From: Siphonodentalium dalli
Taxonomy: Eukaryota; Mollusca; Scaphopoda; Gadilida; Siphonodentaliidae
Direction: 5' to 3'
Length of the DNA: 64,000 nt
Assembly (NCBI GenBank): GCA_032622095.1
Contig: CP136065.1
Span: forward strand, 150,727,577-150,791,576
Shown here piece by piece: positions 5,011 through 48,629 of the stretch; the stretch's first letter is position 1; each line of letters opens with the position of its first letter. The translations under genes were made by a program, and so were the position numbers. The notes under the pieces were generated by a model. The model was not told the origin of the DNA. It saw only the letters and a list, made by a program, of their open reading frames with translations, and did not search any database.

Positions 5011-6620
5011 CTGAATTTATTGTGTGCCATAAATAGTAATAATGATAACTAAAGCTTTGAGTTGAAAAGAATTATTCAAATTTAGAGAGCCTTTAGTGAT
5101 TAATGGCTTTTCCCCATTTTTGCTGTTGTTGTGGCTCTGAATAATACATTCACAGTTTTACAGAAATATATTGATGATCTATTACTTGAGAAATATGGTC
5201 AGCTCAAATCTAGGTTCGTGCTTATTTCGAAACAGTTGTCCCTCCATTGACATAAAGAGCGAGTTGGACCAATGAATTTGAAAATTGTTCTTGGTTTCTT
5301 CACAAAATATTGTCGAAAATTACTATACTCAATGTTTCAGAAGAAATGAAATACTGGTTACATAATCAGGGGTTACCGAAGGTAACCTGTCGCAAATATG
5401 ACATGAAATTGCAGCCATGTGTACGGTGTGCTTTTATGTAAATGAGTTAATGTTTTGCTTTTAAATGGGCCAAGGGTCTACAAAACATAGTACAGTCACG
5501 TTTCTTATTAGCCGATCGTTTCGTTGCGAATGCCTCATCTGTCGGCTATTCTATAAAAATAAATTCCAAATGCTAAATACATTGGCAGTATCAGGTTAGA
5601 AATTTTAACAGATGGAAAGCTTTAGGTACCAGCTGGAAACTTTCAACCCAGATGGGTGCAAATTGAATTTTACTAAACTGGGAGTGTGGTCTTGTTCGAG
5701 GGGTTCAGTTGGAAAAGTAAAAGTGAACAGTCAATGGACACTCTAGTCACGTCTATGTGCCGAATATGTTGTTACTTTGTTCAGTTGAGGGGAGGGGGGT
5801 GTCCACATCCAAATGTTATATGCACTTGATATGCTACAAGTGTTAGGGATATATGAGTATACCTTAGGCTGGGCGAGGGGTTAAACCCCTAAAACGTGTG
5901 GGGAGAACTCACACTCTGCTCCAATTCACACGTCACAAGTGTTGTCTGAATACCTAGTTCATATATCAAGAAGTGTATTTATAGAGCGAGGAAATGTTAT
6001 ACACCAAAACGAAAGGGTGTGAATTCTTCTATACACTAAATTAGGTGTGGTTCTGAATATCATCAATGTCAAAAGGTCACACAGTACAAAATGAAAGCCG
6101 TTTCTTGAACCTGTACAACTAGTCCAGGATATATTAGTCGATCTTTGAACCATTGGAATCAGTTGACTCTGTCTATTTTCTTCCCTATGGTCTCTTCTAC
6201 CTTTTTTTCCGGATGCAAACAAGAAACAAGTCGCCGCATAAAGTCCATCATGGCGGCCATTTTGCTTGATATTCACCGCGTCTATTTGATCGCCAGTATA
6301 ATACAAAACGTATCATAGGCGGTCGTACTTTCCACAAAATTCGCCAAACTTATACACCGCCCTTAGAATTGAGCAAAAAATCCAACACCGAACTTCAACA
6401 TGACGGCCAAGATGGCGCAAAAATGTTAAAATTACTCTAAACTTTAAACATTTCACCAAATGTCGTTACGCCTTGCACGAACACATTTACATATTGGTGA
6501 TTTTATAGATTGTCAGATAGAAGAATCATTAGCACACACAATATGACCGTCATATGCATCCTATGTCGAATTTGTTAAGCCCAAATATGACGTTTTATTC
6601 AAATGCCGGTATAAGCTTTT
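5011..6620. other. Noncoding intronic sequence, nothing recognised
   Basis: No domain-bearing ORF. The longest open stretch (minus, 5959-6306) has no recognisable motif and biased composition. CGCGTCTATTTGATC at about 6277 recurs at 31342, next to a foldback, which hints at a shared old repeat. Confidence 0.5.
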
Positions 6621-7005
6621 ATTACACGATCCTACCATTATTCCATTCAATAAACCCATTCTATAAATTGTGATATTAAACGTTCGTTTAATAACAGGAA
6701 ATAGTGCCAGGTGACCTTTGACTTCCGGTTTACGGTCTTTTAACATTCCGTACGCTACGTCTCAAAAATACTATGACTTCCAATATTTTTCCAACAAACT
6801 ATCATGACTGAAGAATTTGAAAAGTTATGTTATTAAATATATACGCCATTAAAAGCGCCAAATAGTCTTTATTTATCTGGGACTATTTCTTTACGCGGGC
6901 AAACAACGAATAGTTACGTGAAACGTCATCGCATGTCTTATAGAAGCCGATGTTAGTTTCTCGTTCCATTTGTTGATTTAAGTATGTTTTGTCGATGTTT
7001 TGTCG
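6621..7005 (+). repeat. 385-bp dispersed repeat, inverted partner at 61.2-61.5 kb
   Basis: This segment (TGATCCTACC-like start, then CATTCCGTACGCTACGTCTC, ending near GATTTAAGTATG) matches the reverse complement of 61150-61510 over almost its whole length, with substitutions and small indels. It ends directly beside the foldback at 7026. No coding frame is conserved between the copies, so it is noncoding repeat DNA. Confidence 0.85.
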
Positions 7006-7025
7006 ATGTTTTGGATCATGTAATA

Positions 7026-7182
7026 AATAGAATCTACAACTCGTCCCCAGTTTATAGCGGAAATTACAAAACTCGTCCAGTAAATTAGGTCTGGACCTCG
7101 CCAAAGGCTCGGTCCAGACCTAATTTACTGGACTCGTTTTGTAAATTCCTCTATAAACTGGGGACTCGTTGTAGATCCTCTA
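7026..7182. repeat. Long foldback with mirrored CTCG words (member 1)
   Basis: Near-perfect palindrome centred on GCC-AAA-GGC (7100-7108), with position i pairing with 14208-i out to about 7029/7179. CTCG occurs in the same orientation at 7040, 7072 and 7097 in the left arm and at 7108, 7133 and 7165 in the right arm. The spacing is 32-25-11-25-32. Each CTCG faces another CTCG, giving a central TC/TC mismatch. Apart from these three sites I count only two internal mismatches between 7032 and 7176. I checked the pairing base by base. Confidence 0.9.
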
Positions 7183-7390
7183 TGTCACAAATGACTCGAC
7201 GCTAATCACGCAATGTCTGCTTTGAATCACAGCATGTTATTGTTGCGAAGACTCCATCCAACAATATGTGTGTCTGAGGCAAGTATTTTCCAAACAATTT
7301 AGTCGACGAATATTCATTCAAATCTAAGATGGCGTCCAACATGGCAACAAGAAATTGAAAATGGGGAACACGAAGCCCGGTTACACACTG

Positions 7391-7936
7391 GTCATGCAGA
7401 CAGGCCCTTTTTCTGCTTCTTGGTACAATAGTTGACCCAATATCACCTATTTTATTATATCATATAATCAATGTTGCATGTGATATAAAAAAAATAATTT
7501 ATGGTATCACTATAATTCTAATTTGTGATATCATAATATCAGTCTGTGATATCACTAATTCACCGACATTTTATTTCATAAAAAATTTCGACAAAATAGC
7601 ATGGCGGGAGTGTGCGGGGTAGTTCCCTTGGACTGTCGAATTCCGTCGAATTAGTGATTTAATAAAATAACTAATATTCATTGATATCACAAAATGAATA
7701 TATGATTTCACTAATTCAAAATAGTGATATTATAAAATTAATTATAATAAGTGATATCACAGAATGAATGTATGATATCATAAAATCGAATATGTGATAT
7801 CACTAAATGCTTACTATTTTATGATATCATATATTCGATTAAGTGACTTCATATATTCGATTATGTGATATCATAAAATGAATTATTGATATCACTAAAT
7901 AGGTAATAAACAGAAGAACGGCGCCACATGCATGAC
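7391..7936. mobile_element. MITE-like element filled with GTGATATCA repeats
   Basis: The ends read GTCATGCA at the left and its inverted form TGCATGAC at the right. The next ~20 bases match only loosely (…CTTTTTCTGCTT against …GTTCTTCTGTTT). Between them the palindromic word TGATATCA and close variants occur repeatedly, separated by AATGAATAT-like spacers. No coding capacity. The repeat content is clear; calling the whole unit one transposon rests on the weak terminal match. Confidence 0.45.
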
Positions 7937-9290: not shown

Positions 9291-9827
9291 TCTCATATAT
9301 ATTTTGAAGACCTCTGTCTGTCTGTCTGTTTGTCTGTCATTGATACAAATCTACGATTCTCGACCGATCGGGACGAAACTTGGTACGTGTGTGTAGTTTG
9401 ACCAGGCGGTCGTCGTTGTCGTATTGGCGAGTCCGTGCGACGCCCGTGCAGCGCATGCGCAGACGAGATCTCGGAAACGGGTGGAGCTATCGACTTGAAA
9501 TTTGCTATGTGAATGTATCTTGCCCCGGATGCGAATTTTATCGGGTCGCCGAGCCCGTGCGACGCCAGCTTCGCGCATGCGCAGACGAGATCTCGGAAAC
9601 GGGTGGAGCTATCGACTTGAAATTTGGTATGTGAATGTATCTTGCCCCGGATACGAATTTTATCGGGTCGCCGAGCCCGTGCAACGCCAGCTTCGCGCAT
9701 GCGCAGACCAGATCTCGGAAACGGGTAGAGCTATCGCATGCGCAGACCAGATCTCGGAAACGGGTGGAGCTATCGACTTGAAATTTGGTTTTTGAATAGC
9801 CCGGACAACGTCGGGCTCATCGGCTAG
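9291..9827 (+). mobile_element. Helitron-like non-autonomous element A
   Basis: The 5' end TCTCATATATATTTTGAAG follows a host A. The 3' end is a short GC-rich hairpin (AGCCCGGAC-AAC-GTCGGGCT), a 6-nt spacer and CTAG, followed by T. A TC start, a subterminal hairpin and a CTRR end without target duplication are Helitron features. The interior holds a (TCTG)n tract and about three units of a 122-bp tandem repeat, each with the palindrome GCGCATGCGC. Internal tandem repeats are known from Helentron-derived elements (DINE-1/HINE). No helicase gene is present. It lies in the intron between the two vWA exons. Confidence 0.75.
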
Positions 9828-10012
9828 TCTTCTCTCCTATATATTTTGATACAATCTGTATTCGAGAGATAACCCACATCATCCGGACCTCAATGATATG
9901 ATCGTGAATGAGTATTGATATACCCCACTAACTTTGACAAACACCAGTAATGGTGTGTAGATAATTTACATATGTCTCCTATATATTTTGATACAATCTA
10001 TCTAATTTACAT
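9828..10012 (+). mobile_element. Fragments of Helitron-like 5' ends
   Basis: Directly after element A's CTAG comes TCTTCTCTCC followed by TATATATTTTGATACAATCT. The same 5' sequence recurs at about 9974 and 10013. These look like 5' stubs of the same family as element B, separated by unrelated sequence (9870-9970). Confidence 0.55.
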
Positions 10013-10499
10013 ATCTCTCTTATATATTTTGATACAATCTATCTGTTTGTCTGTTTGTCATTTATACAAATCTACGATTCTCCACCGATCGAGACCAAAC
10101 TTCCTATCTAGGGGTAAAATCCCACGGACACGGTCGTTGTCGTATTGGCGACGCCCGTGCAGCGCATGCGCAGACGAGATCTCGGAAACGGGTGGAGCTA
10201 TCGACTTGAAATTTGCTATGTGAATGTATCTTGCCCCAAGTACGAATTTTATCGGGTCGCCGAGCCCGAGCAACGCCAGCTTCGCGCATGCGCAGACCGG
10301 ATCTCGGAAACGGGTGGAGCTATCGACTTGAAATTTGGTATGTGAATGTATCTTGCCCCGGATACGAATTTTATCGGGTCGCCGAGACCGTGCGACGCCA
10401 GCTTCGCGCATGCGCAGACCAGATCTCGAAAACGGGTGGAGCTATCGACTTGAAATTTGGTTTTTGAATAGCCCGGACAACGTCGGGCTCATCGGCTAG
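10013..10499 (+). mobile_element. Helitron-like element B
   Basis: The 5' end (TCTCTCTTATATATTTTGATAC) follows ATA. After a TCTG-rich tract come 122-bp-type units with GCGCATGCGC, then the same hairpin end and CTAG at 10496-10499 as in element A. Its CTAG abuts element C with no intervening base. Confidence 0.72.
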
Positions 10500-10863
10500 T
10501 CTCATATATATTTTGAAGACCTCTGTCTGTTTGTCATTTATACAAATCTACGATTCTCGACCGATCGGGACGAAACTTGGTACGTGTGTGTAGTTTGACC
10601 AGGCGGTCGACGTTGTCGTATTGGCGAGCCCGTGCGGCGCCCGCTTCGTGCATGCGCAGACGAGATCTCGGAAACGGGTGGAGCTATCGACTTGAAATTT
10701 GCTATGTGAATGTATCTTGCCCCGGATACGAATTTTATCGGGTCGCCGAGCCCGTACGACGCCAGCTTCGCGCATGCGCAGACCAGATCTCGGAAACGGG
10801 TGGAGCTATCGACTTGAAATTTGGTTTTTGAATAGCCCGGACAACTTCGGGCTCATCGGCTAG
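10500..10863 (+). mobile_element. Helitron-like element C
   Basis: Starts TCTCATATATATTTTGAAG immediately after element B's CTAG. It contains about two of the 122-bp units and ends with the hairpin (one substitution in the loop-proximal stem) and CTAG at 10860-10863. Element E begins at the next base. The head-to-tail junctions suggest concatemer formation by rolling-circle transposition rather than independent insertions. Confidence 0.75.
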
Positions 10864-12303: not shown

Positions 12304-12873
12304 GTGAGACGTATTTCGTTCGCTTCTATATAATTAAAGATATGGTTTAGCGTTGGCGTGGGTATTGCTGTTAAAATAATCACAGCCGTTAAAACCACTG
12401 TAAACAGGAAGAATATTATATTATAGACAAACATTGTTCTTATACTAATCACAAATATCGCGTAAATAGTTATTGGGTTTTCTTCCCATGGTCTACAGTT
12501 ACAATTCTTAAAACATTTATTCAATTATAACAATCTCTAAAAACGCTTCTTCAAAAATCTCCGTTTAATTATCAATATCAATCCTCGATTAATCCTGAGA
12601 TCAATCTTTAAAAACTCTTTTTCTTAGTCAATATTAGTCATCGATTACTCCTATGATCAATCTTAATGGTCAGACAAACATTTTGCCAAAATTTCCTGGT
12701 ATTTAAACATTTATTTTCTAAAAATTTGCCAGGAATTTGTTTGTGAAATTTGGTACAAGCAATTATTGTGACACAATATTTAAGAAACATCGATCCATTG
12801 GATATTATAACTTATTCCACACCCATCTACGCGAGGCACATGTATTCAACGGAATACGATCCATTGAATACAT

Positions 12874-13299
12874 ATTAGTGTATACCTCTAGTGGAATACA
12901 AACCGGAACTATTCTTGTTGACGTTGTAGCCAAGAAAGATGACGTATATATAGACAGAACACAACGCGCATCTCAATCGAGACTCTTTTATCGAATGAGT
13001 TGCTCGAGCGAAATATAACTTTGCGCCGTCCGCAACGAGTTCGATAAAAGATTCGAGATTATGATGCAAGTTGTGTTCTGTATTTATTCTACACCGTTCA
13101 GTCACATAAGTTCAATCCACGAATGTCACCTTCATTGTTACTATAGCTACCTTTATTGTGATTTAAGTCTGACAAATAACCAGTAATTATGGGGGGAATC
13201 ACCGGAAGCGGATGATCGACGTAATGTACGTCATCTTTCTTGGCGACAACGTCAACAAGAATAGTTCCGGCTTGTATTCCACTAGAGGTATACACTAAT
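12874..13299. mobile_element. Foldback MITE with 73-bp terminal inverted repeats
   Basis: Left arm 12874-12946 (ATTAGTGTATACCTCTAGTG…) and right arm 13227-13299 are inverted copies with two mismatches. A second nested foldback lies inside: GAACACAAC…, then TCTTTTATCGAA near 12957-12995 pairs with 13035-13085. About 135 bp of unpaired sequence sits only on the right side. No transposase. The right terminus directly abuts the minisatellite at 13299. Confidence 0.88.
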
Positions 13300-13730
13300 A
13301 CTATGGGTGGCGGAATGGGGTGGTGGGTGGGTACTGCATATATACGAGCGCCTGTGGCGCATAAGATACTACGGGTGGCGGGATGGGTGGTGGTGGGTAC
13401 TACCTATATACGAGCGCCTGCGGCGCATAAGATACTATGGGTGGCGGGATGGGATGGTGGGTGGGTACTACCTATATATACGGCGCATAAGATACTATGC
13501 GTGGCGGGATGGGGTGGTGGGTGGGTACTACCTATATACGAGCGCCTGTGGCGCATAAGATACAATGGGTGGCGGGATGGGGTGGTGGGTGGGTACTACC
13601 TATATATACGAGCGCCTGCTGCGGGTGGAGGGATAGGATGGTGGGTGGGTAATACCTATATACGAGCGCCTGCGGCGCATAAGATACTATGGATGGCGGG
13701 ATGGGGTGGTGGGTGGGTGGGTATACTATA
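13299..13730. repeat. GC-rich 60-69-bp minisatellite, about 7 units
   Basis: Tandem units of the form ATACTATGGGTGGCGGGATG, then GGTGGTGGGTGGGTACTACC, then TATATACGAGCGCCTG and GCGCATAAG. Unit lengths vary between about 60 and 69 bp. One frame stays open over 205 codons, but this follows from unit composition and spacing. The G-rich stretches could form quadruplexes. Confidence 0.92.
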
Positions 13731-13752
13731 TAATTATTCCTATTCATATGTG

Positions 13753-13782
13753 GGAGATGTTCAGATAATAAGTTCAACAAAC
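13753..13782 (+). repeat. Single arm of the 8807 hairpin family
   Basis: ATGTTCAGATAATAAGTTCA plus the following CAACAAACGG match the left arm of the hairpin at 8807-8877. The complementary arm is missing here. Confidence 0.7.
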
Positions 13783-14337
13783 GGCCTTTCTGAACATTTC
13801 ATAAGGGAGGTATATAATCGTGATGAGTATTTAGTAAAGAAAGAGGTAATGTGTTGAGTGGCTGCGTGTTTTTGAGGAGCGTCCACATGACTGTCACGTG
13901 TGGAAATACATTCTGAATGAATATATGCTATCTATATAAATATAAAAGCTACGCGTTCAAGAGTTTGAACCACTCCGATATATATGGTATTATATATATA
14001 ATATTACCACAGATGCATAGAGATTTCTCCGCAGTGTGACGTCACCGGGTAGGGTTCTCTATTCCGAAAGTTCATTATTCCGAAGGTTCGCTATTCCGAA
14101 GGTTTCAATCCTGGGCATATTTAGCCAGAAATTAATCAAAAGTTACACCCCCCCCCCCCCCCCCCCGCAAAAACCACACGAGGAATGAAAATACTAATAC
14201 GCCAGTTTTCACTTATATATAGTACATTTATACACCCCATTCTAATTTCCAAATTGTCCCAAATGTCGGTTATTAATGGCAGGAAGACAGTATTAGTTTA
14301 TCGTTTATTATATATTTATTATAACTTCATGATTGAA

Positions 14338-17300
14338 TGATATTTGTATCGATCATCTTTATTATTATTATATGTATGTGTTTTTCTTTCAGCATGGTAT
14401 GTAAGGAGGGTGTGAGTGCAAGTGACATTGGTTATTTTTTACACGTTTCGGTATACTCCTGTATAACTTCCACATTAAGAATTTCAGTTGAAGTCTTTTC
14501 CGCCCTTGGTGGTCGATCGGTTGGACGTCTGCGTACTAACGTCTGCTCATGTCTGTAAAAATTATTTCTTCAAACTGTCGAGGGCTGAACGAAACTACTA
14601 AGCGTCGCGATGTTTTTCGACACTTGAAAGATTTGAAACCGTCTATAGTATGTCTACAAGATACACATTTTACAAAAGATATGGAAAAAATTATTTCAGC
14701 CGAATGGGGCTCCAAAACAGAAATAGCATCTTTTAAATCAAATTCTCGTGGAGTAGCAATTCTGTTCAATACAAATTTAGATTTCCACATACACGAATCT
14801 CTGAAAGATACTGGCGGAAATTATATCATTTTGGATATCACCATTGAAAATGTGAGAATTAGTTTGGCTAATATTTATGGGCCAAATAACGATAACCCAG
14901 AATTTTACCATAACCTGCAAAAAGCAATTACTAAAATAGGCAATACTCAAATCGTAATATGTGGTGATTGGAATTTGGTTCAAAATCAAACGTCCGATAC
15001 TTTTAACTATAAACATACAAACAGTCCACGCGCACAAGAGGCGGTGCATAGTCTTGTCGATAGGCTCGAACTAATTGATGTATGGAGATCCAATAATAAA
15101 GAACTTAAGCGTTTCACTTGGAGAAGAAAGTCACCTATAAAAATGGCGAGGCTAGACTATTTCCTCGTATCAGATGATATTTTAAGCCTAATTGGAGAGA
15201 AACCAAACATACTGCCGGGATATAGATCCGATCACTCGATTATAACATTATCACTAACATTAAATACTCACCAGAAGGGTCACGGTTTTTGGAAATTTAA
15301 TCTTTCACTTCTACGAGACAAAACATATATCGATATGATGAATGAGCTCATTGAAACCAATAAGATTCGATACAACTACACTACAGACGAATTAGATAGT
15401 TCCCCTCATCATACTTGTAAATGTGATATCAGCAAAAGACTTTTTCTAGATTCACTTTTATTGGATATAAGAGGGGCTACCATTGCTTACTCTTCAAACA
15501 GAAAACGAGATCGTAAATCAAAAGAAGAATCTCTACAGAAAGCTAAATATGATCTTACCGAATTGGTTGATAGGAATGGGTCGGACATTGAACAGAAGGT
15601 GAAACTTCTGGAAGAGATACAAAAAGTCGATGACGAGTTAATGGATATGAGAAAGGAAGCTACAATGGGTGCAATGATAAGATCTAGAGCAAAATGGATC
15701 GAGGATGGCGAAAAACCAACAAAATATTTCTTAAATTTGGAAAAGCGTAATTATATATCGAAAACCCTGACCAATCTGATAGACTCAAATGGGAAATTAT
15801 TAACCTACCACAATGACATTATTAAAGAAACTCGTAACTTTTATCAAACTTTATACGCTTCAAAATGCACTACTCAATCCGAGACACATTTTGCCACTTT
15901 CGACAATAACGTTTTGAAACTAAATAAAGATATTTCAGATAGTATAGAAGGGCCAATCACCATACATGAACTGTCTGCAGAATTAAAACAAACAAAGAAT
16001 GGTAAGACATGTGGATTGGATGGATTTCCGTATGAATTTTGGAAATTTTTCTGGCGAAAGCTTGGGCCTTTTTTATGTGAATCTCTCAATGAGTCCTATA
16101 AATCAGGAGAGCTCTCCATTACACAAAAACAAGGAATTATAACTCTTCTCCCCAAAAAAGACAAAGACAGACATCTTCTAAAAAATTGGAGACCGATTAC
16201 CTTATTGAACAGCTCATATAAGCTGGCATCTGCATGTATAGCTCAGCGGATGAAACAAGTTCTCCCCCATATCATTAACGAGGACCAAACGGGTTTCTTG
16301 AAGGGCCGATACATAGGAGACAATACACGACTGATTTATGATCTTATATACCAAACTAACTTGAAGAAAATTCCTGGCCTCTTACTACTTTTAGATTTTG
16401 AGAAAGCATTTGACTCTGTATCGTGGAAATTCATGCACAAATGTCTTGAATTTTTCAACTTTGGAGAAACGATAAAAAAATGAATTTCAATATTTTATAC
16501 GAATATTAACTCTTCCTTACTCATAAATGGGCACATATCACAATGTTTCACACTAGGTCGAGGCTGTCGGCAGGGCGATCCTATATCTCCGTACATTTTT
16601 TTGATTTGCGCAGAAATCCTAGCTCTCATGATTAGAAATAATAAAAAAATCAAAGGAATTACCCTCGATGGTTTTGAATTTAAGTTAACGCAGTACGCAG
16701 ACGACACGACACTTATTCTAGACGGTTCCGAAAGTAGTCTGAGTGAGGCTTATTCCACCCTAAATGCCTTTGCTAAAATATCGGGACTCAATCTCAATGC
16801 GAGTAAGTGTCAGGCGTCGTGGATTGGATCAATGGTGGGGCGGCAAGAAAATATATGTCCGGACCTTCATCTCACATTTGCTGACTCATTTAATCTTCTT
16901 GGAATCAACTTTAATACTACTTTAAACAAAATGTCGATTAATTTTGAAAATAAGCTGAATGAAATTAAACGATTAACAGAAACATGGAATCATCGACTAC
17001 TTACCCCATTTGGTCGTATAACAGTTATAAAATCCATCATTATCCCCAAATTAACTCACCTATTCATCGCATTACCTAACCCCAACAACAATTTCATGAC
17101 CAAACTCGAAAAAATACTATTCAATTTTCTCTGGAATTCCAAGCGGGACCGAGTAAAAAGAAAACTCGTCTGTCAAGACCACTCTCACGGTGGAATGAAA
17201 ATGGTAGATGTAAACAATTTCCTCATGTCAATGAAAATAACTTGGGTGAGACGATTGTTATTGAAAAGTTCAAAATGGACACCCCTAACCGACCTTCCTA

Positions 17301-18793
17301 TCACCAAAGACCACCTATTTCTGACATACAACCATGTTTTTCTGAAAAACAAAGCTAGTGTCGTGAACAATCCTTTCTGGCATGACGTATTACTGGCTTT
17401 TGCAAATATGTTAGAAAAAAATAAGAAACAAAATCGATTTCAGGCATGCACTATTTGGAACAACCCCGATATAAAACTGGAAGGACATACCATTAAATTT
17501 TTTTCATGGCGAAAAAAAGGAATTATATATGTAAATGACTTGTTTCAAAGAGGTGGCATATTACACACAGAACAATCTTTATTCGAATGTTATCATATAC
17601 GTACAGATTTTCTGACAATGAACAGCATCCGCCAACAAATAATAGCTATGTCACAAAAGCTCAACCAACCCTTATTTCGTATTGAAAGCCCTTTCCTTCC
17701 AAGTAATTTTGTTATCCCATTGAACAATACTCATGGTGGACAGGACTTCTACAAAATTTTAAATTCAATGAATATCGTACCAAAATCCCATACAAAATGG
17801 CAGGCTGAATTTGAGGATAATGACATTCAATGGGAAAACTACAACCGGCTTGCTTTCACCACGACGCCTGACACGAAAATGTGGTGGTTACAATATAGAA
17901 TTAATCATAGAATACTTTCCACAAAGAAATTTCTTAAAATGGTCAACCTAGAACAAAATGATTTATGTAATCGCTGTGGCACAACATCTGAAGATATATC
18001 CCATATTTTTTGGGACTGTCCGCTTGTTAAAAACTTTATAAATGATGTTACTATTTGGTGCAAATCAAATGGTATCGCCTTGTTAGCCACAAGAAAGATT
18101 GCAATTCTTGGATCCCTATCAATGGGCGGTAACTCTATGATGAATCTGTTTTGGCTACTGATAAAACAATACATATACAAAACTAAATTTAATCCTGATA
18201 TGTTATCACTAAAATCCTTTCTATCAGAACTACAATCTAGATATTTACAGGAGAAATTGTTGGCACAGTGCCAAATGAAATTACCCTCTTTTGAGAAAAA
18301 CTGGTTTTTAATCATTGAAGCTCTTAACAAAACGTCAGAAGCAAACAAACCATGATGTATCAAAATATCGTTCTCACCAAAATCCAAGTTTACCTCTCCA
18401 ACTCACAAGTATTGACCAGAGGAATAAGTGCCGAAAAACCGCCGAGTTGACCCACCAGAAAGGGAAAAAACTTATTTCAACATCAATCAAAATCCCATTA
18501 TACTCAGCAAAGAGCTATATATACACAATTAATATCTTATAAGCATTGAACCTACCGATATTAGCTCTTTGACTAAACATATGTCTAACATAGCTTGCGG
18601 GACCCATACCAGAAACGTGTATAATTATAAACTTGTCGCGATGAGTGAAAGAGCATGTGAGCGAAAGGATGTATGCAAGTTACTGATAGATGGGGATGAA
18701 AGAGTTAGTGTGTGATCTTTTTTTGCAATCTTGTTACAATATTTATATACATTTAATCTTGATCAATAAAAACTTTAAAAAAAAAAAATAAAA
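14338..18793 (+). mobile_element. L1/Tx1-like LINE with target-site duplications
   Basis: The element is bounded by a 17-bp direct repeat with one mismatch: ATAACTTCATGATTGAA at 14321-14337 and ATAACTTCATGACTGAA at 18794-18810. It ends with AATAAA (18764 area) and an A-rich tail. Only about 200 bp precede the long ORF, and no ORF1 is present. Either it was 5'-truncated or the copy never carried ORF1. It sits inside the TIR element 14047-19478, so it is younger than that element. Confidence 0.93.
14549..18355 (+). pseudogene. LINE ORF2: endonuclease / reverse transcriptase, one internal UGA
   Basis: One frame of 1,269 codons runs from an ATG in MSVKIISSNCRGLN to the terminal stop, broken only by UGA at 16481-16483 (codon 645). 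The UGA falls where related proteins carry Trp (IKK-x-ISIFYTNI), so a single TGG-to-TGA change is likely. APE-type endonuclease motifs: SSNCRGLN, CLQDTH (Asp where Glu is usual), IYGPNN, ICGDWN (~137), RLDYFLV and RSDHS (~226). RT motifs: GLDGFPYEFW, RPITLLN, DQTGFLKGR, LLLDFEKAFDS (~616), GCRQGDPISP and QYADDTTLI (~714). A CCHC finger CNRCG…H…C lies near 1139. These are hallmarks of the L1/Tx1 group. The protein would nick target DNA and prime reverse transcription. Otherwise intact, the copy looks young. Confidence 0.93.
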
Positions 18794-19478
18794 ATAACTT
18801 CATGACTGAACTAAAATACATGTACTGTACAAAACTATCTCAATCACGAGCGTTCTAGTTTTGCATTCTGGCGTATCTGCCATCTGTAACATAGCTTTAT
18901 TTCTTACCGGTTATTTCGAGCTCTATATATAATGGAAATCTGGTGACCTTATATTCTTCAAAGCAGAAACTATAGAGATCAACAACAACATTTGAGTCTC
19001 CCTTTCATGGAAACTTAAATCAGCCATTGCTATAATATACATGTAACGTATATACAACGCACATACGTATGTTTTGATTTCATTATACAACAATGTCGTT
19101 TACATTATTCATGTGATGCATTATTATGTATTACATGTTTATTTATATATTTATTATTTGTATTATTTATCTCGTCTATTGAGTCTATTTATAATATATT
19201 GCGTAACGTAAATATGTTTTGAGAAATAACGTCATACGTATAATAACATTAAATCTTATGGAAACCCACGGGGAAAAAAATCACATTTATTGTTTTAATG
19301 TTTTAAGTTATTTCCTTCATAAAAGAGTCTTCGGGATAAATAACTCTCGCAATACTTAGAATATAGAATTAACCTTTAAAATAACACAAACCTTCGGAAT
19401 AGAGAAACTTGGGAATAGCGAACCTTCGGAATAGCGAACCTTCGGAATAGAGAACCTTCGGAATAGAGACATGTCCCC

Positions 19479-20790
19479 GACGTCACCGCCCACACCAACA
19501 CATTGGCTTCGGTTGAGTACTGACATAATATGTTTTTCAAAGTAACCCTTGTAAAAACACTGGTAATAGTCAGGCAAACGATATACCAGGCTCTATACTC
19601 TGGTGAATTATGGTAAAGTCAGGTAAACAATTATATACTCTGGTAAAACCCATGTAATGCCCATGTAAAAAGGACACACCCTTGTCAATTCCAAGTAAAG
19701 GCATGATGTACCCACTTTACTCTCGTAAAATGCTATTGAAACAGGATATACATGCCTAATTTGAGTACAAATTATAGGGTGGTCGATACCTGTTCCTCTG
19801 AAATGAAATTATATGAATTATACAAATACAAATGCAAGTCGTTATAACGAGTTGTTGGAAGTCGTTATAACCAGTAAACTGTTGTGAGTCGTTATAACGA
19901 GTTGTGCATTTGTATATTTGGGGGTGCGGTGGTTTTTCGGATGGCCCTAATGCACTTTCGTAAAAATCAGCCAAATCAATAGCTACATAGCTGGGCGATA
20001 TGCACCGGTATAATATAATCATGGGTGTCTAACCTGGTGATGCATACGGTGTTCTCTTGTCACTTGTTTCATTTCGGCCAATTTGGCCGGTTACTTCATG
20101 TGACTTTTTCATCTGACGTGTGTGTCGGATAATTGATCTGGAGGATTTATGTAAATGTTAGCCCAAACTACATTTCCAAGTAACGATGGTTTTTTTGTTT
20201 ATTTTGAGGAATAATACCGCGTTAGATGAATTCAGCCCAAATATGTTAACAGTTGTCGTGTCAAACATTAGGCAGTAGGTTAGCGTTATTTAGTATTTGT
20301 GGATGTCCTTTAACATGGGGAAAATAGACTACTGCGCTTGAACGAGCATGTGAATTTGTCGTTTTTAATGTACAGCAACTTGATAATCAATAACAGAGGC
20401 ATTCTCTGTCAAATAAGGTCGCTCTATTTACGGTATTAATTGCGGAACTTTCTAAAGTAAACTACGCGTAAACGGATACATACGGTAAATTATAGAATGT
20501 GCCGGAATCGGCCTAATCGCCCCATGGCCAACTCGCCCAGTCGACGTGTGTCAATTCGGTACCTACTATAACATGTACCCGAGTCCGATTCGGAATAAAA
20601 GATGTATACGGGTGTTATATAGCGTTTGGTCCGTTGTTTCTCAATGAATATTATTGAAATTTGGTGTATATGTCCGGGCTGGGACATGGAATACAACAAC
20701 GTTTGAATTGTTTTTAAATTTACAAATTTGTTGATTTTATTCAATTTTTTTTCGTTCTGAAAACACACTATAAAGTGTATATAATAATAT
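19479..20790. other. Noncoding; one palindrome only
   Basis: No domain-bearing ORF. Short GGTAAA/CTCTGGTA-type near-repeats occur at 19590-19720, and the palindrome at 19824-19918 is listed separately. Confidence 0.5.
19824..19918. repeat. Palindrome with three GTCGTTATAAC words
   Basis: The outer arms ATACAAATGCA and TGCATTTGTAT are inverted copies. Inside, AGTCGTTATAACGAGTTG occurs near the left end and again near the right end in the same orientation, with a third partial copy (GTCGTTATAACCAGT) between. CGTTATAACG is itself palindromic, so both direct and inverted pairing are possible. Confidence 0.85.
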
Positions 20791-21093
20791 AATAACGAAC
20801 ACGAGACATACATAATTTATAAACTGTTAACAAAAGATATCAAATTCAATACATGACAAAGATGACTCAGTGGACTTTATAAAGTGAACATAAAAACATT
20901 GAGGTAAGAATCTTTTTAAGGAATGCAACTTTATTTAATGATAATAAACACATAAATTAAAATAACAAACATGAGACATACATGATTTATAAACTGTTAA
21001 CAAAAGATATCAAACTCAATACATGACAAAGATGACTCAGTGAAGTTTATAAAGTGAACATAAAAATATTAAGGTAAGAATCTTTTTAAGCAT
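20791..21093. repeat. 170-bp-period tandem duplication
   Basis: AATAACGAACACGAGACATA… at 20791-20920 recurs at 20961-21093 with few changes, including AAAGATGACTCAGTG and AAGGTAAGAATCTTTTTAAG. About 40 bp separates the copies. Noncoding. Confidence 0.92.
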
Positions 21094-22536
21094 TACTAAA
21101 CCGTTTAGCACAGACCACAGTCCACTTCACTCATCCGATCATCACCAAACTTCATATTTATCTTGATATTGATCTATCAGATGAGAGCTATCAAATATTT
21201 TTTTAATTTCATAGGAAAAAATGGTCGCCAGCGGCCATATTGCATTTACGTTATATTTTATCGCGTCATGTCGATATCTAGTATTACTTAGAAATTTCAC
21301 CTTTCCAGATTCATAATTGCTCCATTGACTGTAACAGATGAAATTATTCCCCTCTTCGGATAGAGTGTCACTGAAACTTTATTTTGTCAGACTGTCTGTA
21401 TAATCACTGATTATATATGGCAATAATCTGTAATAAGATGTAGCACTATTTTATTTTATATTTACATGCAGTGCTGTTTTTATACATCAATTCTAATCCC
21501 CCTAGATCATCATGTGATCGATCATACATCGCGCGAGGACCTGGTTGAATTAAGGGGGTTTTTATGGATCACTTCTGTCCTCAAGCTAGATTATATACTT
21601 ATGACATTTAATGGCATGTTTCTAACGTGGAGGGTTAGATATGCTTGAGAAACCACCACTCTTTAATTCACACCAAGTTCTCAGCTGTCATGTTCGGATA
21701 TTAGAACCCATAGCCATGATATATGGTTTATTTTGTGTATACTAGTAATATAGTTATTTTCAGTACCTTTATATACCAGTACTGTGTATAACAATGCATA
21801 TAAATTAATCCATGTCTACATGTATATTGATTCAACGGATTCAGTGGTTTTGTCCATCAGTCTATCAAATTTGCGGGGAAAACATGGCCACAAGCAGTAC
21901 ACCCTGCTAAATTTCGAATTTGAATCAATTGGCGCACCCTGCAGCCAGCTTTTATTGGAGAACTTTTTCTTATGTGGATATTTTGGGTCACCGCTAGATG
22001 TGAGCCATATTTTGTTCTCAAACTGTCCTTGTGAAGACATCACTGCCAGCGGTGATCTTCAATTTTACTATTTTTATGGCTAAATAATTTGGTTGATCCT
22101 ACAGACGACACCCTTGTCCGATCGTCATCAGATTCCACAATTATCTTCTGGATAACCAGGGTGAGAGTAATCTAATTTTCCCGAATTTCGTTAAAAAACA
22201 TTACCACAGGCAGCAATTTGGTATCTTACTCTTTGATCCTCTTTTGCATGACTGAATTGTTTAGCAACTGTACAGACATATCCCTCATCTGGTTTTTATA
22301 TACATGTATATCTCTTCATGCGGATAGCCAGTATTACGTAGGTACTTCAACTTTCTGCATTCCTGTCATCATTTGAAATATAAAAATTTACCTGATACAT
22401 GCACCCTTCAAAATTTGTTTCGTCGTATCTATTTTAATGACCCGTATGGTAATATTGATACAGATATATTTGTCAAACATTTCTTTGTACAATATACAGG
22501 TATTTAGTTTGTAACTAAATCTAGAAATATATAATA
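21094..22536. other. Noncoding, no feature recognised
   Basis: Open stretches at 21466-21648 and 21784-22083 (plus) and their minus shadows have no recognisable domain and no supporting splice pattern. Confidence 0.4.
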
Positions 22537-23038
22537 GTAGCTCGTGGACCCCACTTCGTCCGGGATGTTCCCCTCAGATTTTCGGAGAAATGCGCGATTT
22601 AACCTTGAATTGACTATTTTAAAGGTGAAGGTCGTGTCGGGGTCACGATTTGACCCGTCCAAAACACTCCCCGGACAAAAGTCACGACAAAAGTACCCGT
22701 CGAAATCCGCCCGGCTTTATACCCGATTTGACCTTGAATTGACAATTTTGAATGTCAAGATCAGGTCAGGGTCATGATTTGACCCACCCGAAACACTCCT
22801 GGGACAAAAGTAACAGTAGGTATCAAATTTCGTTGAAATACTTCCGTTTTACCAGATTTGACCTTGAATTGATCTTTTTGAATGTCAAAGTCAGGTCGGG
22901 ATCAAGATTTGACCCGTCCAAAATACTCCCTGGAAATAATTTCCCCTAGGTATCAAATTTCGTCAAATCTGTCCGGCAGTTTTCCCGGCCATAGCTAACA
23001 GACAAACAGACAGACAAATGTCCAAAATATATATTAAA
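22537..23038 (-). mobile_element. Helitron-like element F (minus)
   Basis: Read on the minus strand it starts TTTAATATATATTTTGGACA, directly after element G's CTAG. It has a TCTG-rich lead and about four tandem units (CGGGTCAAATC … TGACCTTCA-type words) like those in element E. It ends near a degenerate hairpin and CTAC at 22537-22540. The end is less well preserved than in elements A-C. Confidence 0.55.
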
Positions 23039-23425
23039 CTAGCTGATGTACTCGACTTCGTTCGGGCTAGTTAGGGATTTTTTTTGTGATCGCCTCCATC
23101 TGGACAGTACCCAGTATATACAGCGTCTGGCCAAACTATTGTTCAATTGGTCCAGAAACATGCCTATATCAGCACGTTCGAGAACATGGTCCCACGTGAA
23201 ATTGGACCCGTCCATATTGCTCCCGGGATCGAAGTAGTCCTACACACAAATTTTTAGTCGGATCGGTCAAGGTCCAGAAACATGCCTATGAGCGAGGTCA
23301 AGTTGACACGTTAAATACCAAATTCGAGCAGTGTTAGAGTCTATAACACATACACACATGCATTCACGCATACACACATACATACATACATACAGACAGG
23401 TGTTTCAAAATGTATAATCGATAGC
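23039..23425 (-). mobile_element. Helitron-like element G (minus)
   Basis: The minus-strand 3' end is AGCCCGAACGAAGTCGAGTA followed by CATCAGCTAG. It resembles the ends of elements A-C in layout but has a weaker hairpin. The 5' part has a (TG/TATG)n-type lead near 23350-23400 and ends in TTTTGAAACACCTGTCTG-like sequence. The interior differs from A-F. Its CTAG touches element F, another head-to-tail junction. Confidence 0.5.
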
Positions 23426-24545
23426 TACAACAATTCTATGGTAGATAGTTCACGGCCGACCTGATGCATGCATCTTAGTTTTCTTGTTGTATTCTGACTC
23501 ATGTGCATGTGTGGAGAGGTGGCCATCGCAATATCAGACGGAGTGCCAATACTTGACAAGAAAACCATAGTCAGAAATGGTAACGCCACCAAGATTATAG
23601 TATTACATATAAATAGAAATTATAAATAATACATAAAATATTTTGATAACAATTGCGTTTAAACAAGTAATCCTTCAAATTATTACTAACAAAGCAAGTA
23701 AATGACTGTGGGGTCACTCAACAGATTATAAAGACTTGGACTTAGTATACTGTAAATACTGGGACTGTATATTTTTAAATTTTAGTCTAAAATTTAAATG
23801 AAATAATTAAAAGATAAAATTTAGCAAGTAGTAAAAGTTAATTTTATCATTTAATTTATTTTTTTGGTTAAATAAAGGAATAATTTAAATGTAAAATTTG
23901 GTTTTAAAAAAAATGATTGACCGTGGCTCTTCCAATAATTGCGCGACTGACCTGGTCAATTGTTCTTAAGAAGTTGTTTTGAGAATTACTATGGAGGGAA
24001 ATAGTTATGGCTGTGGCTTCGCGAGTAATTGACTTGGTGACGTGATGTTAACAATCTGAACTCCAGTAAACCAAGGACGCTCCATACCAAATATAAGGTA
24101 AATAAATAATTCTTTATAAGTTGTTTTAATATTTACTATGGAGGTGCTGGCTTGAATTGTGGTGCTGGCTTCGTAACTATTTGACCCCATTGTAACAAAT
24201 ATAAATATTAGTCACTCAGGCAATAGATATGTATCTATTCTGTATATTAAGTTATTGGGTCTTATTACGTGTCTTGAGATGTCTAAATATGTTTTGATGG
24301 ACAGATCGCGCAAGCGCAAGGGACCCCGCCAATCTTATTTGTTGTGCTTCCAATTGTTGACTTATTAAATATGCACATATACTTAAGAAACAGTCGCGTG
24401 CGAAGCGCGCTCCCGTCCCGTAGGTCGGTTTTTGGATGCCAGTTAATGAAAATATCATTGAAATAATCGGTTTCCCCCCAATAAACATCCATATATTCAA
24501 TATACATGTTTTTGGAGCAGAATTAGGTAGACCATATTGAACGAC
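23426..24545. other. Noncoding, minor repeats
   Basis: ACAAGAAAACCATAGTCAG at 23559 recurs at about 50437 and 53819, marking a small dispersed repeat. A diverged ~146-bp-period duplication (TTTACTATGGAGG…GGCTTCG) lies at 23970-24180. No gene is seen. Confidence 0.5.
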
Positions 24546-24960
24546 ATAATTCTGCTGTGGTTAAGTGGTCAATTACTTTGGACATTACTGTATGTAGATG
24601 GAGTTATCATTAGACCTCACATCCTTATATGGGATACAGTAATGCCCAAAGTAATTGACCACTTAACCACAGCAGAATTATGGGTAATTTTTCAGGATTT
24701 AAAATCCGGAAAAATTACCCACAATCTGCTGTGCTTAAGTGGTCAATTACTTTGGACATTACTGTATGTGGATGGAGTTATCATTAGACCTCACATCCTT
24801 ATATGGGCTACAGTAATGCCTAAAGTAATTGACCAATTAACCACACCAGAATTAAGGGTAATTTTTCAGGATTTAAAATCTTGAAAAATTACCCATAATT
24901 CTGCTGTGGTTAAGTGATCAATTACTTTGGACATTACTGTATGTAGATGGAGTTAAACCT
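24546..24960. repeat. 174-bp tandem array, two hairpins per unit
   Basis: About 2.4 units with starts 174 and 175 bp apart (TCTGCTG at 24551, 24725 and 24900). Each unit has a 47-bp-arm hairpin, arm 1 starting ATAATTCTGCTGTGGTTAAG and its inverted copy about 45 bp later. A smaller hairpin GGGTAATTTTTC…GAAAAATTACCC follows. The structure repeats faithfully; function is unknown. Confidence 0.92.
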
Positions 24961-25239
24961 CACATCAGTTTGTTGGGGATTTGGACCTTGACTTGGGACC
25001 TTTTTTTTTTAACGCAACAAATGCGAGTACACCTTATACACAAATTTCTGATGTAGCCAGAGTTTTTATTGGATAATATTAGTTTGAAGCCTGCTTACAT
25101 TTCAATATGTTGTCAGTTTTGTATTCTCTGCAGCAGCTAGAACTCGGCGCGTTGAAGCAAAAGTTATAAAAGAAAAATGTGTACGTAACGAGACTATAAT
25201 ACAAATGAAAAAATAAATTGAGGGAGGGGTGGGCATTAC

Positions 25240-26050
25240 ATGGAACTAAGGGTTGAACCGATATAAATCTGTAGAGCGATAACGACCAATGTTGACATAT
25301 TATGCATCCCAACTCTACTGTTGCAACAAGGTTATAAAATAGGGGGGGGGGGGTGTCAGAATTTTAGTCATCTCTATATAGTGCCAGAATAGTAATTTAT
25401 GGACTTCTATAGTGGTACAATACAAATTAGAATCAAATGATAAAAAATATGTATGTAACACAACTATACCGATGAAAATAAAAATAATAATTTAGGCCGG
25501 GATAAGATGTTGGTTTGGTTATATGGACTCGGAGAAAAAGGGGTTCGTACCGATGAACTGACATAAATTAGTGGAGCGATGTTGCCATGTAATGCATCGC
25601 GACTGTACTAAAGCAGCAATGATATAAAATTGGGGGGGGGGGGCCCGGGGGGGGGGGGTCGGAAATTATCTCTATCTCTATAGATGGCACCAGAATTATA
25701 TAGAAAGGAATAGCAATTGATATACGTATACGGTATACTATAGTAATACCATAGACATATAAGTACAAGTATCACGCAATAAAATATTTCGTAACGTGAC
25801 TATAGCGATGAAAAAAAAAAAAAAAATTGGACTGGGATTAGAGATTGGGTTGGTTATATGTGGATAATTGGATATGGAATTCATACCGATGAAATGATAC
25901 AAATTAGTGGAGCGATAAAGACCAATGTTGACACTTAGTCAGGCTACGCGGGGGAAATAGGGGTTGATACGATAGACCGAAATAAATTTGTCGAGTGATA
26001 ATGACCAATGTTGACGTATAAAGTAACGCGACTGTACTGTTGCACAATTA
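25240..26050. repeat. Diverged ~320-bp tandem repeat with poly-G tracts
   Basis: Three diverged units share ATAAATTxGTxGAGCGATAA, GACCAATGTTGAC and a GGGGGGG tract before a TCTCTATA…GCCAGAAT segment. The tracts are at about 25342 and 25632-25661; the second is G13-CCC-G13. The third unit lacks the tract. Confidence 0.75.
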
Positions 26051-26135
26051 TCATGTAGAACCAGTCAAATATGGACTCTGGTGCCAATATGGAACAGCTC
26101 AGAAAACATTTGAAGGGGCCTAAAATTTATTTAAC

Positions 26136-26510
26136 ATGGGATCTGCCATACAAATCGATTTATGTTGATAAATCTCTTATTTTTCAAAATTTTAAGCTGA
26201 GACTTGGTGTGTCTGAGTGGGATACGTATATATTCCTAAAATGATAGGATACAGCACATAATTATGTTTTAGGTGGAAGAAATGAATTTTTTTCGATGAT
26301 AAAATTTAACAATAAGTTAATATTATATAATAATAACATGGGTGGGATTTGCAAATAAAATCGATTTATGTTGACAAAACTGTCATTTTTCAAAATTTTG
26401 AGTTGAGAATTCGTGTGTCTGTGTGTAATACTTATATATTCTTAAAATGACAGAGTCCAGCGCGTAATTATGTTTTAGATGGAAGAAATTGAATTTGTTT
26501 TCGATAACCA
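26136..26510. repeat. Two-copy ~200-bp tandem repeat
   Basis: AATCGATTTATGTTGA, TTTTTCAAAATTTT, GTGTGTCTG and TAATTATGTTTTAG…GGAAGAAA occur in the same order at 26150-26310 and 26355-26510. Noncoding. Confidence 0.85.
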
Positions 26511-26759
26511 TCTACGGCCGTACGACGGGTTTATCGAGTACGCTATTTTATAAACAAACTTTTGTCAATAGCCGTTTTGGTCAAACTAAACCTTTTTCGA
26601 CCGGGAAAGCAGATCCGAATAGTAGCTAAGATGTATTTAGATAGAATTATCAAAAGAATTTGACCGATTAGGGTGCATTTTAAAAGAATCGAGTGGAGAA
26701 ATCTTGGTGACATTTTCATAAAACACGCCGATAATTCCAAAGATAAAAGATGGCGGTTA

Positions 26760-27850
26760 TCACAATAGAACAGGCATAATATTACCCATAATTCACCTCA
26801 CAACACCAGGGGGCTTACCCATAATTCACCTCACTATACCAGGAGGCTCCCAATGGGTTATATATTATTTTCAGGCTATCAGATTATTTATATTTTCAAC
26901 AACATATTATTACACCGGTGACTTTAAGATTACAATTTCAGCCTGTCCTGACTATCGATACGATTGAGTCATATTTTCAAAAACATATTATACACCGGTG
27001 GCGTTAACTTTACAATTTCAGCATCTATGTGATTCTATCGGTACGATTTGAGTAAGGTACAAAAAAAAGAAATCTTCGCCCACTCGACCACAGAATTGGA
27101 GACTACCACTGAATATGAAAAACAGCCACACTAGAAACACCACACATGGTGGCGTAATAATAAATAAATTAAACCATAAACTCTTACCATAATTACAGAA
27201 AATAAAAGATGGCCGTTACTACAAAAAAAACAGACATGCGCACTCCAATTAAAATTACCCATAATTCAGTTCACTACACCAGGGGCTCCCAACAGGTTAT
27301 ACAATATTTTCAGGCTATCAGATTATTTATATTTTCGACTTTAAGTTTACAATTTGAGCCTGTCCTCACTCTATCGATACGATTTATCATAAACATATTA
27401 TACACCAGTGGCGTTAACTTTACAACTTCGGCATCTACGTGATTATATCGGTACGATTTAGTAAGGTACAAACAATCTCCATAAAATACCCACAATTCAG
27501 TTCACTACATGCAGGGGCTCCCAATAGGTTATTCCCATTTATTATGGGCTCCCAATAGGTTATACAATATTTTCAGGCTATCAGATTATTTATATTTTCA
27601 ACAACATATTATTACACCGGTGACTTTAAGTTTACAATTTGAGCCTGTCCTGACTCTATCGATAGGATTTATCATATTTTCATAAACGTATTATACACCG
27701 CTGACGTTAACTTTACAATTTCGGCATCTACGTGATTATATCGGTACGATTGAGTAAGGTACAAACAATCTCCAAGAATACATTCGCCCTGTACTCCATG
27801 CGATATAAAAAAACCAAATGCTAGAAACACCACACTAGGTGGCGTAATAA
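26760..27850. repeat. Three-copy tandem repeat, 270-430-bp units
   Basis: Units carry ATTTTCAGGCTATCAGATTA, TTTACAATTT…GCCTGTCCT, ATTATACACC…GTTAAC and CGGTACGATT…GTAAGGTAC. Copies start near 26840, 27285 and 27550. CTAGAAACACCACAC…GGTGGCGTAATAA closes the first and third copies. The middle copy is internally deleted. Confidence 0.85.
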
Positions 27851-28591
27851 GTAGAACCGCTAATTAAATAGTTTAACCCATGTTGCCATAATGTCGATAG
27901 GGGTGGCACGCTCCTTACACAATAGTGTATGTTTGTATCAATTGCACAAACATATTTCCGAATCCTTAGTTGAAATCGGCATAATCTATTACAATATAGG
28001 GAAATGCACGTTTGGCTATAAATAATCAAAATTATAGAATTTTTCACATGTATATAAATCGTGCGAAGATAACTAGAAAATCGCGTGCTGTGCGTCTATT
28101 GTCTGCATGGCTCTCGGTGTGGGTTCATGGCCAATGGCCGCCCCCCCCCCCCCCCAAATCAGTTTTCCAAGTGCTACTGATCAGTTGATCGCATGTGTGT
28201 TTCCACAACCTTTTAGCAGAAGCAACTAGAAGCAATATACTTTTAAATATATGACTTATGTTATTTGTATTTCGTCATTTCAGTAAGGACGAAAAATAGA
28301 CCGAAGTGGGCGTGGCTCTATTTGCTACAAGAAGAACAGTCATAACGAAATCACAAAGAAACGTCTTCGTTCGTGGACGTATCCACTCGATCAATTGATC
28401 ACTATATATCGGCAATCAATAAAGATTCTGATGTGGAACATGTTAATAATATTGAATTTTAATTCTAAGCAAATTATTTGCAATGTGATCTGTATCCTTA
28501 TGACCGTGTGGTATATTTCTAGATATTAAAAGTTATCAGCAATTCGAATTAGTCGTCAGACTACATTGGTTTATTACAGGTATTATTACAC
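27851..28591. other. Noncoding, poly-C tract
   Basis: No gene seen. An uninterrupted C tract of about 16 bases lies at 28140-28155. Confidence 0.5.
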
Positions 28592-28595
28592 TTAA

Positions 28596-29049
28596 AGGCC
28601 TACTTAATTTTCGAACCCCCAGATTACATTATATAAAATATATGCCATATTATATACCATTTGAAAGATGAAGCTCCAAAACATTGTATTATCAACTTAT
28701 CCGGTGTAATAAACTGTGGACATGTTGTTTTTGTTGAATTGCCAACGCGTTTTGTCATCAAGAATGAAGTAAAAATCAGTATTATTTTCAATGCAGGGGG
28801 AATAACTTTATATACTAAAGATAGAGTTCTTCCCCTTCCATTGAACCAGTTTGAATTCTGTTGCATTCTGGGTGACAGAGGGGGGGGGGAGTCTTCTATT
28901 TATCTGTGGGCATCTTCTGAGACACAGATGTTTAAAATAGTGGTGAAATATAGCATTTTAATCATATTTTATGGCATAGATTGTTATTAAAACCGTATAT
29001 CAAGTCACCATAAAAAAAATAATTGGCGACTCGAAAATTAAGTGGGCCT
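28596..29049. mobile_element. TTAA-flanked non-autonomous DNA element 1
   Basis: Inverted termini AGGCCTACTTAATTTTCGA (left) and its near-exact inverse (one substitution, right) are each flanked by TTAA (28592-28595 and 29050-29053). A TTAA target duplication is typical of piggyBac and Kolobok-type elements. Inside is an open stretch of 109 codons (plus, 28661-28990) with no recognisable transposase motif and a shadow on the other strand, so I do not call it a gene. Confidence 0.82.
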
Positions 29050-29329
29050 TTAAATATGTTCTATATATCTTCCTGGCAACGCGTCCAACAATAACACCAA
29101 CCATGCATTAGAATCAAACTTCTATATATTGAACACACGTTTGCATGATTACCACACCCTCAATAAAACATACCAAGAGAAACATTTTGTGTTACACAGT
29201 ATTTCACTTAAAGATTCCCTGTCCGATTTGACACCATGAAACTACATGCAATATATACGTTTTCTACACCAGAAAATAATTAGAACGGAATCATGACCCC
29301 ATTAATAAATATTTGTATTGCCAGATATC

Positions 29330-29620
29330 AACTTTCAAAAGAGGAAGCTGAAGCACTTTTTGGATTTTTGACAACCTGGCAAAAAATCAAATGATCGCCT
29401 CTTATAAAGAGCCTCCATACTTCGGTCACACAAACAGCGGTAGATACTTGTATAATAAAGAACATTATCGTTTACGAACTTTTATCTTATTTTCGACGTA
29501 TTACTTATTGGAGATTTTGTGGATATGCCTGTGTGGTACGAATGATGGTGATTGTAAGTATTTTTTCAATTTATTTTGCCTTGTAAGTGAAAACGTGGAT
29601 TATAGGAAATTTTGAATTAG
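29330..29620. repeat. Diverged dispersed repeat, copy 1
   Basis: CCAGATATCAACTTTCAAAA, then GAAGCTGAAG and ATGATCGCCTCTTATAAAGA align in order with 52920-53010. Upstream TGTTACACAGTATTTCACTT (29202) also resembles 32590-32613. Old, noncoding repeat. Confidence 0.55.
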
Positions 29621-37596: not shown

Positions 37597-37602
37597 CTCT
37601 AG

Positions 37603-46565: not shown

Positions 46566-46625
46566 AGTTAAAATATTCAGAAACCGCGTTTCTGGTTCAT
46601 GGGAAATTACTCCATGAACAGGCTG

Positions 46626-48075: not shown

Positions 48076-48097
48076 CAATAGGCTTTGTACATTGAGG

Positions 48098-48540: not shown

Positions 48541-48629
48541 GTGGTATGTGATCGTAGTGCTTTATTGGGGAGGGTTGGGCTATCAGGAAATAACAATATA
48601 TATGATGGAGGCATAGATCAATTAGCAAT

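Follow-up and report, generated by a model that had tools for sequence, protein, structure and literature searches.

Self-facing CTCG words in a family of long hairpins from Siphonodentalium dalli, possible 3' ends of Helentron-like transposons

The window analysed here is a 64-kb stretch of contig CP136065.1 of the scaphopod Siphonodentalium dalli (assembly GCA_032622095.1). Long genes for a LINE reverse transcriptase/endonuclease lie at 14540-18355 and 43320-46625; the first frame is interrupted by a single stop (16481-16483), and the second runs without a stop for 1101 codons. These LINE genes by themselves point to eukaryotic, probably animal, DNA. Predicted LINE-type open reading frames at 38070-38690 and 48064-48561 contain NPGP motifs (EPNPGP, HPNPGP), which we take to resemble 2A-type ribosome-skipping peptides. 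Arrays of a 122-bp satellite (CGCATGCGCAGAC...) are present in opposite orientation at 9428-10833 and 60431-60881. Tandem palindromes with a period of 174 bp and devoid of CTCG and CGAG occupy 24545-24942, and 36437-37602 holds an inverted repeat whose arms, about 500 bases long, are roughly 79% complementary. Common to this window are also six hairpins of one design, termed A, B, C1, C2, D and E, on which the evidence for a family is based.

Hairpin A is a palindrome (7029-7179, centre 7104) which, together with the end motif GATCCTCTAT, extends over 7028-7183 of the plus strand. Compared with shuffled sequences, its two strands fold with z-scores of -19.4 and -20.1. The word CTCG starts at positions 7040, 7072, 7097, 7108, 7133 and 7165, and each copy lies opposite another CTCG, which results in a 2x2 mismatch T.C/C.T; CGAG was looked for in this hairpin and does not occur. 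A first-pass annotation of the locus had reported that CTCG is repeated in the same orientation in both arms, leaving a TC/TC mismatch at each facing pair, and this is true of all six words. It had also given their spacing as 32-25-11-25-32, with which the coordinates agree. The mirror symmetry of that spacing is not a separate fact because it follows from the words facing each other within a palindrome. The additional claim that mismatches occur only at CTCG was too strong: six of the ten mismatched pairs belong to the three CTCG/CTCG loops, and the other four (A7031/C7177, C7058/T7150, A7063/A7145 and the apical A7103/A7105) lie elsewhere.

The design recurs in the remaining five hairpins, of which D and E are read on the other strand and those of C1 and C2 are located within 34454-34887 and 34888-35318, respectively. 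Among 78 2x2 internal loops in inverted repeats of the window (located by BLAST at E<=1e-3, with the two arms no more than 400 bases apart), 11 were self-facing CTCG/CTCG or CGAG/CGAG, with 0.00045 per loop expected from base composition. Eight of these loops are formed within single hairpins and three arise where copy C1 pairs with copy C2. In the set of inverted repeats obtained at E<=10, CTCG/CTCG was the commonest 2x2 loop (8 of 41, of which three again join C1 to C2); every other word pair was found at most three times. In a strict word scan CGAG was the sole non-self-complementary word, with 2 of 25 pairs. A looser scan tolerating one word mismatch was unspecific: CATC (14), AATA (11), TAAA (9), AAAT (8) and CACC (7) preceded CGAG, which ranked sixth with five pairs.

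The words are strongly biased in orientation. Together the six hairpins comprise 933 bases and contain 23 CTCG and 2 CGAG, where about two of each are expected; without hairpin E, which was oriented by the word itself, the counts are 21 and 2. A true palindrome would balance the two words, and the ratio of 23:2 thus departs from a palindrome; the same counts led us to reject a mere richness in CTCG. By reading, 22 of the 23 words stand opposite CTCG or a sequence that differs from it by one base, the exception being that at 13005 in hairpin D. In seven further stretches of the window that form inverted repeats, the counts of CTCG and CGAG were zero and zero in five cases, one and one in another, and three to two in the last. 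Hairpins with ordinary inverted CTCG words and random mismatches, named in the first-pass annotation as the outcome that would contradict its view, were not seen in the window.

Five of the six hairpins (A, B, C1, C2 and D) share their ends: an AATAAA-type repeat precedes the hairpin, and TCTAT follows it. In all five, this order of repeat and hairpin is seen on the strand that carries CTCG. The ends of hairpin E gave no match to those of the family, despite the same design. Shared ends, the order of parts and a repeated body place the hairpin at the end of a transposon-like element, a setting that had been overlooked in the initial description of hairpin A.

On the plus strand, element A consists of a 5' terminal or subterminal inverted repeat (TTTATTACACGATCC, 6618-6632, identified in the sequence by fuzzy search), a body (6619-7002), a small hairpin (6674-6693) with an 8-bp stem and a 4-nt loop, a 3' subterminal inverted repeat (subTIR; GGATCATGTAATAAA, 7013-7027) that is the inverse of the 5' repeat with one base differing, and finally hairpin A. 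According to self BLAST and alignment, the body is 80% identical to 61511-61152. This second copy (61152-61511, minus strand) has the 5' repeat, found by fuzzy search at 61499-61512 on the other strand, and lacks the 3' subTIR and the hairpin, its similarity to A ending where these two parts would begin. A small hairpin of 8-9 bp near the 5' end is present in A and C1, and its version in C2 has a mismatch; between A and the second body copy its stem shows compensatory changes at two pairs.

Elements C1 (34454-34887) and C2 (34888-35318), both on the plus strand, are arranged head-to-tail and are 86.6% identical over 440 aligned columns; C1 terminates in TTCTATCTAT, and C2 starts there with TTTATTTCACACC. 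The 5' subTIR of C1 (TTTATTGCACACC) is located at 34454-34466 and its 3' counterpart at 34713-34725; in between are a complementary repeat (GTGCAATAAA, 34517-34526) and the small hairpin (34533-34552). The corresponding subTIRs of C2 are at 34888-34900 and 35143-35155. In the hairpin of C1, CTCG is found at 34768, 34798, 34813 and 34840, and that of C2 has CTCG at 35198, 35224 and 35239 and CTCA at 35266. The two copies also differ by a 4-bp insertion, ATCG, beside a CTCG word of C1 (34768-34775), which offsets the pair 34768/34840.

Of B and D the 3' copy of the repeat is present, and the inverse 5' repeat occurs in A and C, where (in A, C1 and C2) the subTIRs are inverse up to a few mismatches. 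Element end B (31352-31517, plus strand) comprises the subTIR GATCATGTGATAAA (31352-31365), the hairpin and the same end GATCCTCTAT as in A, and its words are CTCG at 31378, TTCG at 31408, CTCG at 31433, 31443 and 31468, and CTCA at 31499. No credible 5' end of B emerged from a search of 20000-31352, which yielded one hit with three mismatches. Element end D (12948-13095, minus strand) is made up of the 3' subTIR GGTGTAGAATAAA (13083-13095), the hairpin and the end TCTGTCTAT; no 5' end was found in 13087-20000. Its subTIR block has 18 of 22 positions in common with the C2 block; elsewhere in the window, C1 and C2 excepted, the best agreement is 16 of 22. In plus-strand notation, the facing pairs of D are CGAG/CGAG (12978/13054), TGAG/CGAG (12996/13036) and CGCG/CAAG (12965/13067). 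Hairpin E (49030-49118, minus strand) has CGAG facing CGAG at 49067/49078 and CAAG facing CGCG at 49040/49105, also in plus-strand notation. In both D and E the outer loop thus places CGCG opposite CAAG, mirrored between the two hairpins, and perhaps represents decayed words or a second allowed pair. End D lies between the 77-bp arms (96% complementary) of a longer palindrome, 12873-12949 / 13224-13300, beside the left arm, and may have been inserted at the centre of this older palindrome.

With breakpoints chosen by eye, the flanks of A and C allow a reading as a TT target, ..T/TTATT....TCTA/T.., where the slash marks the breakpoint, and those of B and D allow it on their 3' side; in the second copy of the A body, TTATT is preceded by A. 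As read here, the element has asymmetric ends (TTTATT.. and ..TCTAT), and the counterpart of the 5' repeat precedes the hairpin rather than lying at the 3' end. A gene for a Rep/helicase protein or an autonomous partner was not found in five open reading frame stretches of the window, whose scan returned hits to reverse transcriptase and endonuclease, a GDSL hit that stayed below its cut-off, or nothing.

Comparison of A with B suggests that stems and words have evolved differently. The two sequences are 72.8% identical over 173 aligned columns, flanks included. Ten stem pairs show two-sided compensatory changes; 500 shuffles averaged 5.1 and never attained ten, and the maximum in slid controls was three. 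Of the 66 pairs of this alignment, 15 are broken in B and four are gapped, in part owing to gap placement. Identity holds in 22 of 24 word columns, compared with 73 of 115 columns in the rest of the hairpin (P=0.004, one-sided Fisher test); drawn from two sequences, this conservation is suggestive, not final. The changed words (TTCG and CTCA in B, CTCA in C2, TGAG on the plus strand in D) differ by one base each, and three of these four changes affect the CpG, the exception being TTCG. Simple random decay was rejected in view of word conservation, 2x2 loop enrichment and the 23:2 orientation bias. The proposal of the first-pass annotation that selection acts on the word is supported in this respect, as a facing word is present in five more hairpins and as the words of A and B were kept while their stems diverged with compensation.

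The elements resemble Helentrons and their non-autonomous HINE relatives in several respects. Published accounts give the order of HINE/DINE-1 elements as 5' subTIR, body, 3' subTIR and short 3' palindrome, with insertion into a TT target (PMC4067079, PMC7492417), and for mite HINEs they give 3' palindromes of 5-10 bp and 3' subTIRs 38-60 bp from the end (PMC4067079). As far as these descriptions go, inverse subTIRs of 12-15 bp near both ends are shared with A and C, and a palindrome between 3' subTIR and 3' end is shared with A, B, C1, C2 and D. C1 also has, towards its 5' end, the repeat that is complementary to the subTIR, although this repeat is located 1-22 bp from the subTIR in the HINEs described and about 50 bp from it here. 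A T-rich target as given for Helentrons and HINEs is consistent with the flanks of the elements, whose breakpoints were set by eye. By contrast, the hairpins of A-D measure about 115-180 nt and contain facing CTCG words, as compared with the 5-10 bp of the mite palindromes, and the 3' subTIR is situated about 130-165 bp from the end instead of 38-60 bp. A palindrome size beyond that of the mite HINEs described makes these elements a variant at most, and we have not filed them as ordinary HINEs.

Helraiser offers a functional parallel. Its 3' hairpin is reported to act as a transposition terminator, and a swapped stem retained about 90% activity whereas changed loop bases did not (PMC4778049). 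A hairpin just before the 3' end with an exchangeable stem and important loop bases, as described there, parallels the free stems and fixed words seen here. The palindrome of Helraiser is 19 bp long, the ends are 5'-TC and CTAG-3' (CTRR in general) and the target is A-T (PMC4067079, PMC4778049), none of which we saw in our elements. A canonical Helitron was rejected on the basis of the ends, which we read as TTTATT.. and ..TCTAT, without 5'-TC and CTRR-3'. With regard to hairpins as such, none of the open-access papers listed in literature searches describes, by title or opening of the abstract, a design with self-facing words.

Foldback transposons such as Tetris or Galileo possess long inverted repeats, as do the hairpins of the window. 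The terminal hairpins of the bacterial IS200/IS605 elements are short and carry a bulged base, and such asymmetric features enable the enzyme to read the hairpin of one strand alone. The likeness of the hairpins studied here to those of IS200/IS605 lies, by analogy, in their strand asymmetry.

Since each word is opposite its own copy, the loops are tandem T.C on one strand and, within C-GA-G, tandem G.A on the other. The two hairpins of a perfect palindrome could not be told apart; self-facing words make the top and bottom strands differ. Sheared tandem G.A pairs are favoured in the context CGAG. Among 48 self-facing words CGAG ranks third in the RNA energy model and twelfth in the DNA energy model. 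With RNA parameters the CGAG strand has the lower energy in five of six hairpins, E being opposite by 0.2 kcal/mol. With DNA parameters the bottom strand is lower in four of six, and B, D and E differ by at most 0.2 kcal/mol; the generic DNA energy model does not clearly favour the G.A strand.

We give even odds to the view that hairpin A forms, as a terminal foldback, the 3' end of a non-autonomous transposon of Helentron-like type in which facing words mark one strand of the palindrome. Several observations weigh against this view: the second copy of the A body lacks the hairpin, B and D yielded no credible 5' end, E has the design but other ends, the palindromes published for mite HINEs are far shorter, the DNA energies hardly separate the strands, 15 of 66 pairs of the A/B alignment are broken in B, and the five open reading frame stretches scanned contained no Rep/helicase gene. 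From the hairpin family with its shared ends, the order of parts in A and C, the conserved words and their fixed orientation, we infer rolling-circle mobility, recognition by a Rep protein and strand marking. In this model the stem sequence would be free to drift as long as the arms pair, while the facing CTCG words would be retained and would distinguish the top from the bottom strand of the element. A HUH Rep/helicase supplied in trans may then read the marked hairpin on one strand only, and the hairpin might signal the end of strand transfer, as is described for the 3' hairpin of Helraiser.

The asymmetry of the two strands might alternatively be used in RNA. Acting as a transcript of the CGAG strand, the hairpin would form a long stem with tandem sheared G.A pairs and serve a dsRNA-binding or processing protein or the escape from dsRNA sensing. 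The compensatory evolution of the stems and the RNA energies mentioned above are in line with this idea, but in B and D the two strands differ by just 1.7 to 3 kcal/mol. Moreover, the design is found at matching element ends in stems with no evident sequence in common, which fits an end signal better. No Rfam family in the window scored above its gathering threshold, for which reason a known Rfam RNA family was rejected; there were only five weak generic models of miRNA precursors, below gathering scores, at 6950-7250. An RNA function is unlikely in our opinion. Slightly less probable still is that CTCG serves as a double-stranded binding word that a transposase reads in one direction, the hairpin being a mere foldback. 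The single orientation relative to the element end (five of five) and a context that often reads A-CTCG-T by eye would suit such a word, yet binding sites need not face each other, as 22 of the 23 words do, and evidently just four bases are shared. The protein-binding word considered in the first-pass annotation is possible as such, but the facing position and the C..G closure suggest a motif built from both arms.

Two further explanations invoke the history of the palindromes instead of a function of the word. If the elements were ordinary cut-and-paste foldback MITEs, the words would be an inherited accident. The hairpins are indeed palindromic and repeated; however, the words outlast the stems and recur in stems without evident common sequence, and the asymmetry of the ends also speaks against this origin, which we regard as improbable. 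Alternatively, the CTCG pairs could be target-site duplications around inner palindromes inserted at older CTCG tips. Formally, stripping each inner layer leaves a CTCG-centred palindrome, and end D, as noted, is enclosed by a longer palindrome. Nested insertion is nevertheless the most improbable of these alternatives because A and B have all three layers in common (28/21/7 versus 26-27/21/6 bases) and these layers diverge together; furthermore, when 6000-7700 was compared with the window by BLAST, hairpin A matched itself and B alone, save for 20 flank bases.

Relatives of the hairpins were also sought in public viral and prokaryote collections, where we judged the matches to be due to chance, so that these searches revealed no copy beyond the window. 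The pattern CTCGTCCASTAAATTA matched 13 viral contigs, none of which, folded with 80 bases on each side, had a repeated facing CTCG. A pattern of four words at the observed spacing was found in at least 120 stretches, and the best arm pairing among the matches listed was 11 of 21 (143 matches checked). The five-word pattern matched seven viral stretches and at least 119 genome stretches; in a check of 241 matches in 255 loci, the mean GC content was 0.75 and the best pairing among the matches listed was 12 of 21, compared with 21 of 21 and 18 of 21 for hairpins A and B by the same measure. A pattern specific for A and B had no match in the genome contigs and one derived from C none in the viral contigs, while the end pattern of C and D matched a single viral contig without CTCG in the approximately 280 bases examined. 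BLAST of the hairpin against a phage collection gave no match, and none of 48 candidate relatives of the LINE reverse transcriptase sought in viral contigs was confirmed.

Enzymes that move DNA via single-stranded hairpins must tell the strands apart, and a perfect palindrome conceals the strand. We tentatively propose, at a lower level of confidence than for hairpin A itself, that the elements belong to a rolling-circle-like superfamily of animals with giant terminal palindromes in which self-facing CGAG (G.A versus T.C) marks the strand for the replication enzyme. If true, a symmetric palindrome with a strand-specific conserved word would be a clear natural solution to this problem, and it would provide a handle for finding the enzyme and for testing hairpin recognition in eukaryotic rolling-circle transposons. 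Annotators gain a searchable signature, namely self-facing CTCG in long hairpins.
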